Shown: piece after piece, positions 54,719 to 60,117 of the stretch
Layout: the number at the start of each line of letters is the position of its first letter
How positions within the stretch are numbered: the stretch's first letter is position 1
Assembly: GCA_902780455.1 (NCBI GenBank)
Contig: CACZFO010000003.1
Span: 1-64,000 of the forward strand
Length of the DNA: 64,000 nucleotides
Direction: 5' to 3'
Source of the DNA: an uncultured Bacteroidia bacterium
GTDB taxonomy: Bacteria > Bacteroidota > Bacteroidia > Bacteroidales > UBA932
Notes under the pieces: model-generated
What the model was told of the DNA's origin: nothing
The model's input: only the letters and a program-made list of their open reading frames with translations
The model's database searches: none
Translations under genes and position numbers: made by a program

Positions 54719-55297
54719 ATGAAAATTTACACAAAAACCGGAGACCAAGGCACAACCTCACTGGTAGGAGGAAAGAGAGTTTTCAAGAACGATCCCAGAG
54801 TGGAAGCCTACGGAGATGCCGATGAACTGATTTCATATCTCGGACTTATCATTGCCGAAAGCGAAAACCCGGCCAATACCGCCGGTATGGCTACCAGAAT
54901 CAGAAAGGACATTCTTAGAATCCAGCAGACAATGATGTGCGTATCAGCCTTTCTGGCCATGCCTGAAGAAGGCACCGGCAAGAAGCTCAAACCTTTGGAG
55001 GAGTCTGAAATAGAATTCCTTGAAAAGGGTATAGACGAGATGACAGGCCAGATGCCTCCGCAGAAAGCCTTCGTGATACCCGGAAAACCCCGCCAGGCAG
55101 CCCTTTGCCATGTGGCAAGGACAGTCTGCCGCAGGGTAGAAAGACGCTGCGTCAACATCCACTCCACAAATGAAGACCTGGAGCAGAATCTCACCAAGTG
55201 CAAAAAATACATTAACCGCCTGAGTGACTATCTTTTCACATTGGCACGGTTTTTCTGTACGATTACCAACACACCGGAAGAATTCTGGTTACCATAA
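54719..55297 (+). CDS. Cob(I)alamin adenosyltransferase, PduO type
   Basis: 192 residues. MKIYTKTGDQGTTSLVGGKRV is the ATP-binding N-terminus of PduO-type enzymes; the body is the helical bundle with RRVERRC near the C-terminus. It makes adenosylcobalamin from reduced cobalamin and ATP. The product is the coenzyme needed by the methylmalonyl-CoA mutase at 23422-27435. Confidence 0.95.
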   Translation: MKIYTKTGDQGTTSLVGGKRVFKNDPRVEAYGDADELISYLGLIIAESENPANTAGMATRIRKDILRIQQTMMCVSAFLAMPEEGTGKKLKPLEESEIEFLEKGIDEMTGQMPPQKAFVIPGKPRQAALCHVARTVCRRVERRCVNIHSTNEDLEQNLTKCKKYINRLSDYLFTLARFFCTITNTPEEFWLP

Positions 55298-55702: not shown

Positions 55703-55782
55703 TCATACTAAAGGCCACCCTTTAGGGTAATTTTACTCTACTTGAGCAGCGTATGTACTTAACCTAATAGATCACTGCTTTG

Positions 55783-55813
55783 AAAAAGAGGACGACAAAA
55801 ATCTGCCGTCCTC
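55783..55813 (-). terminator. Terminator of the PepSY gene
   Basis: On the minus strand GAGGACG / CGTCCTC stem (7 bp, loop of 12) followed by TTTTT, 35 bases past the PepSY stop codon. Confidence 0.75.
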
Positions 55814-55848
55814 GTGAAACACACCTATTTAACTAACTTTCAACCATG

Positions 55849-57345
55849 TTATTCTTTGGCTCTTTTCCGTCTTTTCCTTCTGAAAAGGCGTATGACATAT
55901 TTCACTCCAAGGACAACGCCTGTCAATGAAACAAACGCTCCTCCCAGAAGCAGGACCCACATGACTACGGTCCAGGCTCCCCTTCTTCCGTCGAAAATCT
56001 TGTACCTGAGGCTGTGGAATCCCTGATACAGCTGGAACTGCCACTTGGAATGAGTGTTGAAACTTCTGGAGTTTCCGCTGCACGGATCTATGTAATAAAC
56101 GTTTCTGTCTTTGTTGTCAACCTGGATCTTCCATACAGGAAGCGGCAGTTTTCCCTTAAGGTCCAGATAGTAGCTGTCATACTCTTCCATCAGGCTCAAC
56201 GATACGCCCTCACCTGGATGCACAGCCTCGACAACCGTCCTGACCTCGGCGCTGTCCAGATAGAGCTTTTCTGCGACCTGAGGCACAGAAGCATCTATGC
56301 ACCGGCTTTCACCGTCAGAAAGCTGTATCTGGTAGAATGGATGGGATCCGAAGCTCTTCCACTCAACCTTGGTGATCCGCCCAGGATTACGGCTGAGAAG
56401 ATCAGAAAGGCTCAGACGGTATCTTTGGAAATCTGTCATCCCGGTGCCAAGCGCCTCCCTTGAGTCATACTGCTTGTGCTCCCGTCCCAGCCATTCCGGG
56501 ATCTGGGTCAGGGAATACATGCCACTCAATATCCAGGTGAGCAGGAATATCCCGAAAACAGTGCCGAACACATGATGCCATCTGTACCACTTCTTCTTGT
56601 AAGGGCTCCTGAGACCGTTGCCTTTCCTGGCAGAGATACGGAAAGAGCTCACAGCCATCCAGAAACCTGAAAGCAGCATTATGATACCGAATACGGAAAG
56701 CCAGATAATCAAAGACTTCCAACCTTCAACATCTTGCCTGATCCAGGTGAAATACACCCAATGAGGAATCGCTCCCGCCCAAGCCCAGATCCTCTCGGAC
56801 CTTGTGGTCTGCTGGAGGACTTCCCTGGACTTTGATGATATGTATATCTGTGTCCTGTCCTCATCGCTGAAGTAAAACTTGTAGATCGGAAAATCCTCCT
56901 TGAGCCTTCCGAAAGGAATCCACTGTTCCAGGGAATAAAGGGTATCTATCTTTTCCACAGGGGAAGAACACCACAGAGACGCTACACGGAATATGCTTTC
57001 TTTCTCGTCAAGAACCTTGTATTCAGAACTGTCTGCAAGCAATTCGGTCCTTTTCCCATATCCGGAACCAATCTCATACCGTGTCTGCCCAAGATATCGC
57101 CACAAAGAAGCGGAACGGACGGAATCCATTCCGATTCCGTTTTTCAGGGCGATACTGTCCAATGGCAACGTGTCATATCCAAGAGGCTCAAACCTGGCAA
57201 GTTTTTCCTCCCTGCTGGCGGAAGGGAATCTGTGGTATATCATCACGATTCCAGTGACAAACCACATCAGGAAGAGGATACTGAGCAATGTGCCCAGTAT
57301 CCTGTGTACAGTCCTGAATATCTTGTCCAAGTATTTAGAAAGCAT
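55849..57345 (-). CDS. PepSY-associated membrane protein
   Basis: 498 residues from the ATG at 57345, which lies inside the receptor gene's 3' end (11-base overlap). Four membrane segments: about 13-38, 205-230, 255-280, 465-490, with PepSY-type periplasmic domains between. His residues at helix ends (HRF, WYRWHHVFG) resemble the heme-binding inner-membrane iron reductases that accompany siderophore receptors. As it is coupled to a riboswitch-controlled receptor, a role in reducing or releasing the imported metal or corrinoid is inferred. Confidence 0.8.
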   Translation of the reverse strand: MLSKYLDKIFRTVHRILGTLLSILFLMWFVTGIVMIYHRFPSASREEKLARFEPLGYDTLPLDSIALKNGIGMDSVRSASLWRYLGQTRYEIGSGYGKRTELLADSSEYKVLDEKESIFRVASLWCSSPVEKIDTLYSLEQWIPFGRLKEDFPIYKFYFSDEDRTQIYISSKSREVLQQTTRSERIWAWAGAIPHWVYFTWIRQDVEGWKSLIIWLSVFGIIMLLSGFWMAVSSFRISARKGNGLRSPYKKKWYRWHHVFGTVFGIFLLTWILSGMYSLTQIPEWLGREHKQYDSREALGTGMTDFQRYRLSLSDLLSRNPGRITKVEWKSFGSHPFYQIQLSDGESRCIDASVPQVAEKLYLDSAEVRTVVEAVHPGEGVSLSLMEEYDSYYLDLKGKLPLPVWKIQVDNKDRNVYYIDPCSGNSRSFNTHSKWQFQLYQGFHSLRYKIFDGRRGAWTVVMWVLLLGGAFVSLTGVVLGVKYVIRLFRRKRRKRAKE

Positions 57346-59686
57346 ACTGAACAGAAAGTGTATAGTTTCTTGGCTGGCTTGGAACCATCTGGTTGCCAAG
57401 TGACTGGTTGAAATACTTCTCGTTGAAGAGGTTCTTGATGTTCAACCCGAGCCTGATGCCGTTCTTGAGGTTGTAGCTGAAACCGATGTTGGTCAGCCAG
57501 TATGAATCAAACCAGGTAGTGTTGGTGGCATTGCGGTAAACCTTGTCCTGGAAATCAACGTCAAAGTTCACGCCAAAACCCTTCAGGACTCCGGAAGGAA
57601 TCACATAGTCTCCCATCACAAAGAAAGTGTTCTTAGGGATTCTGGCGTATTGCTTTCCCTTGGTGGCGTCGGAGTCCATATACTTGTTCTTAGCCATCTC
57701 CTTGACCTTTGCGTCTGTGTAGGCGTAGCCGGCGGTCAATACCATTCCAGTTACCGGAATATATGAAACTTCCACGTCAAATCCCTGTGAACGCATCTTG
57801 CCCACCTGTCCAACTACATTCTTCTCAAGTGTTTCTCCATCTATCACATCACCCTTGGAAGCTATGTTCCTTGTCATGTTGTACTTGTTGATGAGGAAGA
57901 GGGAGAAATCGGCCCTGAGTTTGCTGCTGATTTCATAGCGTGCACCAATCTCAAACTGTCCGCCCTTTTCCGGCTTGAATACTTCCTTGCCGTCCTCCGG
58001 CGTAAAGATTTTGCCGTCACGGTCAACATAGATGGTGTTGTCGTTGTAGAAAGTGCGTATAGGCTTGAAATATGTGCCGTAGGAAGCAAACAGCGAGAGG
58101 TCTTCAACAGGAAGGTAAACCACTCCCGTCTTGAAAGTGAAGGCACCTGTCTTGAGCTTTGAATACTTGTCGGAATCCACGTGGCCGTATTTCCTGCCGC
58201 CGTTTATGACGTCTATTCCGGAAGCTCTCTTGAAACTGTATGTGTCATATCTTCCGGCTACCATGAACTTCCACTTGCTTGTGAGATCCATCACATCGTG
58301 GAAATAAAAGCCCAGCATCCTGGTGAACTGTGGAGTAGCCTTGCTGAATTTGGTATCCATCCAGCCGATGCTGTGAGGGTTGTAGGTTGTTCCGTGGCCG
58401 GTGAGTCCTGGACCTACGACATCATCCCCTCTGGAACCGAAAAGATAACCAGAATAAGAAACCCTGTCAAGATAAATGAAGGTATTGCCACCCATGAAGT
58501 TATGGACGACGCTTCCTGTGCGGAACTTGCCGCTGAGCTCTATCTGGTTGTTGACGGTCTTTGCCATGTGGGAGAATCGCAGAGGATAACCGTAGTAGAG
58601 AGAATCCAGGCTGATGTAAGTGCGTACACCCGGCTTGGCCTCATAATACCAAGGGTATATCGGTTTGCTGCTGGTCAGATAGTCCAGCTCCTCGGTTGAG
58701 AAATAGTCTATATCGTCGTTCGTGTAGGAAATGTTCTCAGTCAGTTTCAGATTGTCGTTGAACCTGTGAACCCATTTTGCGGAAACATTCCAGTTACGGT
58801 TGTACATTTCGTCAGACTCGCTGTTATATCTCCATTTGCGGTCCAGGCCCGGAAGCATATCGTTCTTTTTGAGATAAAGCTTCTCGGTTGCTGCATCATA
58901 GATGTCTGCAGTCATAAGGGCAGGAAGGCCTATTTCAGTTGCATAGAAATCATTCCCTCCACCAAACCTGACTTCTACCATATCATTTCTTCCGAAATCT
59001 CCGCCAAGAGCAAAGTAGCCTGAAAGCCTGCGGATACGGTTGTCTCTCCAGCCGTCCTGGTTCTGGTAGTTGAAGCTTGCCTGGTAATTTACCGGACCAA
59101 GCAGTTTGCCGCCAAAGGCCATCCTTGCGTTGGTCGTGTACCAGCTGCCATAGGAAATCTTGGCAAACATATGCTGCTGGGCAGATGGTGCTTTCCTTAC
59201 GATGTTGATTACGCCACCAACTGCACTGGAGCCATAGAGAACAGAAGACGGGCCTTTGAGAAGCTCTATCTTCTCAACTGCTGAAAGATCCATGAAAGGA
59301 TATGAGTTGTCTATAGCGGAACGTTCGTCCCTGACACCGTCCACCATAATTACAGAATGGTCAAAACCCCTGATCTGCATCTGCTGGAAAGCGCCATAGG
59401 AAGTCTGGATCCTGACTCCAGGAAGGAACTTGACAGCTTCCTGTATGTCTGAGATGTCTCTGTTTACAATAGCCGTGGACTGGACAGATGAAACGGCAAC
59501 TGGAATGAACTTTAACGGTACGTCAATCTTGAGAACCTGCTGCTTGGACTTGTTGTAGTCAGTTACATAGAGTTCCCTCAAAGCATAGGTAGTATCTTTT
59601 TCGGTGCTGCCCGCTCCAGTATTCTGGGCATAGACTGAGCATACACCGGCAACTACACATGCGAAAGAAAGTAAAATCTTCCTCAT
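57335..59686 (-). CDS. TonB-dependent receptor under B12 riboswitch control
   Basis: 783 residues. Signal peptide (to about residue 21), plug domain (VSSVQSTAIVNRDISDIQEAVKFLPG..., GPSSVLYGSSAVGGVINIVRK) and a long barrel ending NYTLSVQYAF. By plug motifs it resembles siderophore receptors of the FhuE/FpvA type more than classical BtuB. However, a cobalamin riboswitch lies just upstream, so it likely takes up cobalamin, cobinamide or a related corrinoid, or cobalt chelates. It is coupled by overlap to the PepSY gene. Confidence 0.88.
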   Translation of the reverse strand: MRKILLSFACVVAGVCSVYAQNTGAGSTEKDTTYALRELYVTDYNKSKQQVLKIDVPLKFIPVAVSSVQSTAIVNRDISDIQEAVKFLPGVRIQTSYGAFQQMQIRGFDHSVIMVDGVRDERSAIDNSYPFMDLSAVEKIELLKGPSSVLYGSSAVGGVINIVRKAPSAQQHMFAKISYGSWYTTNARMAFGGKLLGPVNYQASFNYQNQDGWRDNRIRRLSGYFALGGDFGRNDMVEVRFGGGNDFYATEIGLPALMTADIYDAATEKLYLKKNDMLPGLDRKWRYNSESDEMYNRNWNVSAKWVHRFNDNLKLTENISYTNDDIDYFSTEELDYLTSSKPIYPWYYEAKPGVRTYISLDSLYYGYPLRFSHMAKTVNNQIELSGKFRTGSVVHNFMGGNTFIYLDRVSYSGYLFGSRGDDVVGPGLTGHGTTYNPHSIGWMDTKFSKATPQFTRMLGFYFHDVMDLTSKWKFMVAGRYDTYSFKRASGIDVINGGRKYGHVDSDKYSKLKTGAFTFKTGVVYLPVEDLSLFASYGTYFKPIRTFYNDNTIYVDRDGKIFTPEDGKEVFKPEKGGQFEIGARYEISSKLRADFSLFLINKYNMTRNIASKGDVIDGETLEKNVVGQVGKMRSQGFDVEVSYIPVTGMVLTAGYAYTDAKVKEMAKNKYMDSDATKGKQYARIPKNTFFVMGDYVIPSGVLKGFGVNFDVDFQDKVYRNATNTTWFDSYWLTNIGFSYNLKNGIRLGLNIKNLFNEKYFNQSLGNQMVPSQPRNYTLSVQYAF

Positions 59687-59744
59687 ATGAAAAAAGTGAT
59701 AAAATTATTAATCCAGTTCCTTGCCCGGGAACTTGTGTTAACTG

Positions 59745-59922
59745 CGGAGTTCTGGCAGGTCTCCTGACTCTATCCTGGGGGCCTTCCCATTTCAGATGAA
59801 ACAGTGGCTAGATTCCCAAAAATCCTGATGGATCGGATATTACAGTAGCGGGCACTGTTCCGGTTTCTCACCGGATTCCCTTTTAAAGTCTCAGGCCGAA
59901 AGGCCTTCGTCTCACCAAAATC
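59745..59922 (-). ncRNA. Cobalamin riboswitch
   Basis: On the minus strand: GGGAATCCGGTGAGAAACCG (near 59861-59880), CAGTGCCCGCTACTGTAA, GCCACTG with GGGAAGG, then the B12 box AGTCAGGAGACCTGCC (59754-59769), an exact consensus match. A hairpin AGTTCC/GGAACT (about 59714-59734) follows between aptamer and ATG and could be the expression platform. Adenosylcobalamin binding should switch off the receptor-PepSY operon. Confidence 0.95.
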
Positions 59923-59927
59923 CGCTG

Positions 59928-59935
59928 CAAATATA
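59928..59935 (-). promoter_or_regulatory. -7 box TATATTTG for the riboswitch transcript
   Basis: Minus-strand TATATTTG; start of transcription near 59922, leader of about 235 bases to the receptor ATG at 59686. Confidence 0.65.
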
Positions 59936-59990
59936 TAATTATTCCGTTAAAATGTAACAAACTTGTTATTTTTTTTCATCGGCGATAAGC

Positions 59991-60116
59991 ATGGGATGCG
60001 ACGAGTTCAACCTGAAGGCCGTAGACCAGGATTACGGCAAGGATGCCGAGGGCAGGCCTTCTTTTGCCGGACTTAAAGGTCTTTATACGATATTCATCAG
60101 GAAAGACAATAAATAG
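59991..60116 (+). pseudogene. Possible gene remnant of 41 codons
   Basis: Reads GCDEFNLKAVDQDYGKDAEG and continues to FIRKDNK, with codon use like the rest of the genome, unlike random sequence. It has no promoter or upstream domain and its stop abuts the stop codon of the regulator on the other strand. It may be the C-terminus of a gene lost by deletion. The source gene was not recognised. The rest of 59936-60117 shows nothing further. Confidence 0.35.
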
Positions 60117-60117
60117 T

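Follow-up and report, generated by a model that had tools for sequence, protein, structure and literature searches.

A cobalamin riboswitch, a TonB-dependent receptor and a PepSY_TM protein in Bacteroidota: a candidate cobalt-acquisition operon linked to corrin-ring synthesis

A cobalamin riboswitch, a TonB-dependent receptor of the siderophore-receptor type and a PepSY_TM inner-membrane protein form a compact operon on the minus strand of the first 64,000 nucleotides of contig CACZFO010000003.1 (the window), which comes from an uncultured bacterium of the order Bacteroidales (lineage UBA932). In the genomes sampled, the receptor family occurs only together with genes for corrin-ring synthesis. 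We tentatively favour the reading, to which we give close to an even chance, that the operon is a B12-repressed cobalt-acquisition unit serving that synthesis.

The riboswitch aptamer (RF00174; positions 59737–59933, minus strand) is matched over its full length (1–189) with 92.5 bits in cmscan (E = 1.2e-21; gathering score 31.5), and is the sole gathering-level Rfam match within the window. An exact B12 box, AGTCAGGAGACCTGCC, lies inside the aptamer at 59754–59769 (minus strand), in the leader of the receptor gene. The genes for the receptor (57335–59686, minus strand; 783 amino acids) and the PepSY_TM protein (55849–57345, minus strand; 498 amino acids) are the only two between the riboswitch and the terminator, and overlap by 11 bases, the PepSY_TM start codon (ATG) being at 57345 and the receptor stop codon at 57335–57337; the sister locus L136 has the same overlap. 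An intrinsic terminator (55788–55813, minus strand), in which an 11-pair stem is followed by TTTTT, closes the operon. The stem is the longest among the terminator-like sites (8 found versus 4.2 expected). The two-gene operon headed by a full cobalamin riboswitch is confirmed, together with the exact box and the 11-base coupling that the first-pass annotation had described from the letters of the DNA.

The receptor appears to track corrin synthesis and not B12 salvage. In an even sample of 198 near-complete genomes of the order, searched at a receptor threshold of E ≤ 1e-60, 8 genomes had the receptor and 17 had CbiHC, every receptor genome being among the 17; none of the 181 sampled genomes that lack CbiHC had the receptor. 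Of 39 genomes of the genus, 8 have the receptor and 17 have CbiHC, again with all 8 inside the 17. The p-values of this co-occurrence (hypergeometric, 4.8e-10 for the order, or ~1e-7 when collapsed to families with 100 families assumed; 4e-4 for the genus) are guides only, since the sampled genomes are related. B12 riboswitches are near universal in this group (55 of 61 relatives), and B12 regulation alone therefore says little. In seven of the 8 receptor-positive order genomes, the receptor either has a riboswitch at its locus or is embedded among cbi genes; the Porphyromonas genome (G119) has neither.

These counts bear on the possibility that the receptor is a further importer of cobamides or cobinamide, with the PepSY protein reducing Co(III) corrinoids. 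Control by a B12 riboswitch is a hallmark of BtuB operons, the pair adjoins BtuFCD in Balneicella (G050), and cbi-positive species may salvage corrinoids too. However, most of the 181 genomes without CbiHC, if they use cobamides, must import them, so that a corrinoid importer would be expected to be common there, yet the receptor is absent. In addition, the receptor is not BtuB by NCBIfam score or by tree, and the cbi operon of the source genome already has two BtuB-like receptors. We regard this explanation as improbable. The first-pass annotation had proposed uptake of a corrinoid or a cobalt chelate; the cobalt half is strengthened by the restriction of the receptor to genomes with corrin-ring genes (8/8 in the order, 8/8 in the genus), and the corrinoid half is weakened by its absence from the CbiHC-less genomes (0/181) despite near-universal riboswitches.

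Conservation of the locus was read from the neighbourhoods of 105 riboswitches in the source genome and its relatives. The order riboswitch, receptor, PepSY_TM is repeated in five further species of the genus (G016, G023, G026, G027, G036) and in Balneicella, which belongs to another family, and thus the arrangement is not due to chance. In Balneicella, a BtuFCD operon adjoins the pair, and CbiM is encoded in an operon headed by a third riboswitch. A scan of 84,980 species genomes returned 59 loci; the peptide patterns used were taken from four family members, so the scan samples the family and not its context. Nearly all true full-length homologues (~32% identity or more) have an upstream B12 box or lie beside CbiK, CbiHC, CbiET and CbiGF, and the gene order CbiK, receptor, PepSY_TM, CbiHC, CbiET, CbiGF is found in Bacteroides fragilis, Parabacteroides and others. 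RF00174 was confirmed in all 12 box-positive related loci, and in 9 of 11 other loci it is at the operon head or inside the cluster; the two exceptions are a Porphyromonas locus with neither riboswitch nor cbi context and L140, which is cbi-embedded and has no riboswitch. The receptor family is a Bacteroidota-wide orthologous group.

The receptor has a Plug domain (PF07715) and a barrel domain (PF00593), and narrowly passes the siderophore-receptor model TIGR01783 (227.4 bits versus a cut-off of 223.5). Assignment to BtuB was rejected (TIGR01779, 78.1 versus 599.7; NF007926, 63 versus 836). The structure model (pLDDT 86) is closest to PiuA, Fiu, FoxA, FhuA and the pyochelin receptors (FptA) over ~640–650 residues, with BtuB aligning over a smaller part; the VIA-align Z score is unable to separate BtuB from siderophore receptors (40.5 versus 42.4), and only coverage and the Foldseek score favour the siderophore type. 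In the same structure search, the fold is closer to siderophore than to heme receptors. In a tree of receptors, the family members group in a single clade (SH-aLRT 100), separate from receptors of the BtuB-like and Xus-like kinds; the Xus-like kind is represented by those of G009, G015 and T. forsythia and not by B. theta XusA itself. The earlier proposals of a siderophore-type receptor and of its distinctness from BtuB both hold.

Such a receptor could also import iron xenosiderophores in the manner of Xus, the control by B12 being coincidental. A receptor joined to a PepSY protein is the architecture of XusA and XusC (PMC13142918), the TIGR01783 score is above its cut-off, and the structural neighbours are ferric-siderophore receptors. 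However, the receptor falls outside the Xus-like clade, and iron import gives no reason for the conservation of the riboswitch across families or for the co-occurrence with corrin genes. Membership in Xus itself was rejected, as no XusB-type lipoprotein (DUF4374) is encoded between riboswitch and terminator and the clades are separate (SH-aLRT 100). Receptor and PepSY_TM pairs are known for copper in addition to iron (PMC12914433), which means that this architecture is not specific to iron. Iron import is the explanation to which we give the least weight, and we consider it quite improbable.

The partner protein matches PF03929 (PepSY_TM) with 41.4 bits versus a cut-off of 28.8, in a search that used a 500-amino-acid translation. 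Its model (pLDDT 87) contains four long helices, and H14, H195, H257 and H444, which are invariant in 29 homologues (alignment A3), are at the ends of these helices. The helix order would place the four His residues two on each side of the membrane, as described for FoxB and CrpH (PMC13038864). The best fold match of the model is FoxB (7abw; Foldseek probability 1.00, E = 1.3e-4), with Z 11.2 over 259 residues and an rmsd of 9.3, a moderate match for a partly helical protein. The sequence profile of the family matched no solved structure, and the link to FoxB therefore comes from the fold search. In CrpH of Bordetella pertussis, H200 and H444 are needed for function (PMC13038864); H195 and H444 of the present protein are near these in position number, compared without alignment. 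Profile, fold and His pairs together suggest a putative diheme metal-chelate reductase of the FoxB type, in which heme binding and reduction are putative; this agrees with the reductase-like partner proposed in the first-pass annotation.

We infer the ligand, the reduction step, the hand-over of cobalt and the direction of regulation in the following scheme. When cobamide is scarce, the riboswitch would permit expression of the operon, and the receptor would carry chelated cobalt across the outer membrane, perhaps in the form of a siderophore-like compound loaded with Co(III). The PepSY_TM protein, acting as a FoxB-like diheme protein, would reduce the metal in the periplasm and thereby release labile Co(II). 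In lineages that make their own tetrapyrrole, this cobalt would pass via CbiMNQO to a cytosolic chelatase, and in lineages like that of the source genome it would go to exported CbiK cobaltochelatases. With ample cobamide, the unit would be switched off by the riboswitch. The B12 riboswitch together with the linkage to corrin-synthesis genes argues for cobalt uptake, transport itself being a predicted step.

Organisms that make the corrin ring share two needs, for cobalt and for a ring precursor, and the second suggests another function for the receptor: it may import sirohydrochlorin, siroheme or a cobalt-loaded form, exported CbiK would remove or insert the metal outside the cytoplasm, and BtuCD-type transport would bring the cobalt ring in. 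HemC is absent in 24 of the 33 genomes with CbiHC (the source genome and with it all 17 of its genus, and 7 more). CbiM is absent in all 24 of these and present in 7 of the 9 HemC-positive genomes (Fisher, 8e-6, strongly influenced by one genus). The source genome (G000) was examined through searches plus limited stretches; in it, the tetrapyrrole-methylase profile detected only CbiE, CbiF, CbiH and one methylase that lies in the window, and neither CbiL nor CobA. Corrin-ring enzymes from CbiH onward are present there. Porphyromonas gingivalis has likewise been noted to lack the steps to precorrin-2, and salvage of tetrapyrrole precursors is recognised, mainly in Firmicutes (PMC6461909).

Exported CbiK fits this alternative as well. 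Both CbiK copies of the source genome, which lie outside the window, have lipoprotein signals (by eye). Exported CbiK partners score 262–279 bits with PF06180 (cut-off 26.2). CbiK homologues beside the receptor in relatives start with signal or lipoprotein peptides and keep H-E-H, which we take from Salmonella CbiK to be the metal site; the paralogue on the BtuB side has H-D-H. The latter belongs to the operon headed by the only other cobalamin riboswitch of the source genome (G000:C26:20437-20625 and L033), which encodes a BtuB-like receptor, the lipoprotein CbiK (H-D-H), a second BtuB-like receptor, CbiHC, CbiET, CbiGF and CbiJD. However, the receptor is also present in four genomes that have both HemC and CbiM and need no imported precursor (G050, G115, G119, G204), no exported CbiK adjoins it there where the neighbourhood was read, and its fold is nearer siderophore than heme receptors. 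Cobalt is the need common to both groups, so import of a cobalt chelate is ranked first and precursor import, taken together with its CbiK and BtuCD steps, second, as a reading we think unlikely. A scheme that combines the two, in which B12 is made from a scavenged tetrapyrrole and periplasmic Co(II) supplied by the receptor and PepSY reductase is inserted by the exported lipoprotein CbiK, outside the cytoplasm, is in our estimate similarly unlikely; under this scheme, neither CbiM-type cobalt import nor uroporphyrinogen III synthesis would be needed.

Several observations weigh against cobalt acquisition for corrin synthesis. The nearest structural relatives of the receptor bind ferric siderophores, and as far as sequence goes the ligand may be iron. 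Nine of the 17 order genomes with CbiHC are without the receptor, which is therefore not obligatory, and the order search scored only the best five candidates per genome. Among order genomes with CbiHC, CbiM is present in 4 of the 8 that have the receptor and in 3 of the 9 that lack it; there is no clean replacement of one by the other, and the idea that CbiM and the receptor exclude each other was rejected. The Porphyromonas receptor copy has no riboswitch. Finally, as the source genome lacks HemC and neither CbiL nor CobA was found, its route to the corrin ring may have gaps, or may begin with a precursor taken up from outside.

The operon lies within a 4.2-kb cassette (55769–59992, not assigned to a strand) that is shared, according to blastn and the junction sequences, with the sister genome G026 at a different locus. 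DNA identity over the cassette is 98.1% with G026, 97.0% with G027 and 96.7% with G016, and flanking cob/cbi genes are mostly 68–81% identical between the source genome and G026 or G027. In G026 and G027, the cassette is between cobC and cbiK; in the source genome, these two genes are adjacent and lie on a different contig from the window with its cassette. The stretches compared with the cassette include L083:13547-17769 and L209:7512-7561. One end of the cassette coincides with the terminator and the other with the upstream edge of the promoter region, and no terminal repeats or transposon were seen at the junctions. Transfer as a unit, riboswitch included, is apparently the simplest reading of this identity; a chimeric contig is a possible alternative. 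At the cassette edge, a reading frame of ~41 codons (about 59990–60117, plus strand) resembles the end of a gene truncated by insertion; a remnant of the divergent CbiK gene was rejected, as the residues are unlike CbiK C-termini and tblastn gave no match in the fetched loci.

Two further elements flank the aptamer. Upstream, by eye, is a likely Bacteroidota-type promoter (59928–59961, minus strand), in which TTTG (59958–59961) is separated by 22 nt from TATATTTG (59928–59935); we take the consensus to be TTTG/TAnnTTTG with a usual spacer of ~19 nt, that of the candidate being longer. On the 3′ side is a probable regulatory hairpin of the L13 type, AGTTCC-CGGGCAA-GGAACT (59715–59733, minus strand), identified from by-eye comparison and folding; its single-sequence fold (z = −1.38) is not significant alone, and in most relatives the B12 box is followed by a hairpin with a CCGGG loop and changed stems. 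A gene for a PduO-type cobalamin adenosyltransferase (54719–55297, plus strand) is convergent to the operon; a second such gene, its product 37% identical, is in the cob operon on contig C21.

Other riboswitch loci among the relatives have different contents. In G015 (L051:1-4417) and G009 (L042:456-8566), a B12 riboswitch is upstream of a Xus-like operon of receptor, XusB-related lipoprotein (E = 6.5e-7 to 9hqe) and PepSY protein, and that of G015 is divergent from a second riboswitch with BtuFCD. Proteins like NrdD and NrdG (an oxygen-sensitive ribonucleotide reductase and its activase, by eye) are encoded at L042:5647-8566, L051:7858-10605 and L208:6511-9283, in the B12-riboswitch operon of G009 and at the end of cbi operons in G015 and G022. 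In G003 (L034:2177-3942), a cobalamin riboswitch is directly upstream of a transporter of the CitMHS/sodium-sulfate symporter family, an unusual target.

According to a 2021 review, no cobalt-specific outer-membrane receptor had been confirmed (PMC7689651). If the cobalt reading is correct, the present receptor would be a concrete candidate. It belongs to a defined orthologous family that comes with a putative reductase, in many cases also with a dedicated exported cobaltochelatase, and that is present in Bacteroides and Parabacteroides, which can be cultured. The receptor would also bear on a question that dates back to the P. gingivalis work cited in PMC6461909, namely where Bacteroidota that have corrin-ring genes but no HemC obtain their starting material. 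Another review lists cnoABDC among gut cobalt transporters (PMC8123684), and the present family may already bear this predicted name. A literature search of partial coverage yielded no publication in which a cobalamin riboswitch is connected with PepSY.

Among known systems, XusABC of Bacteroides thetaiotaomicron (BT_2063-2065) is alike in having a TonB receptor co-operonic with a putative PepSY reductase of the inner membrane in Bacteroidota (PMC13142918), but it is under strong control by iron (PMC10434189) and includes the lipoprotein XusB, whereas the present operon has a B12 riboswitch, no XusB, a receptor of another clade and a tie to corrin genes. The copper unit CrtA/CrpH also consists of a receptor and a PepSY_TM protein (PMC12914433, PMC13038864). 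CrpH and FoxB (7abw) share with the present protein the PepSY_TM fold, four membrane helices and four invariant His at helix ends; however, copper regulates the operon of CrpH and the substrate of FoxB is ferrioxamine, whereas the substrate here is a predicted one and the sequence profile finds no solved relative. In Novosphingobium aromaticivorans, a B12 riboswitch precedes a TonB receptor predicted for cobalt, with NiCoT and CobW (PMC7689651); no PepSY protein or exported CbiK is described for it, and the present family is Bacteroidota-wide, with a genome-level test of co-occurrence. The BtuB/BtuG loci of Bacteroides likewise combine a cobalamin riboswitch with TonB-dependent outer-membrane transport, but the present receptor is far below the BtuB cut-off, has no BtuG and is restricted to genomes with corrin-ring genes. 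FetB and IhtB, which are CbiK-like heme-binding proteins, are exported as well, and among solved structures FetB (9b86) comes closest to the CbiK copies of the source genome; IhtB has been considered in connection with heme iron in P. gingivalis (PMC13227078, PMC6460266), whereas the present CbiK homologues are encoded in B12-controlled and cob/cbi operons.

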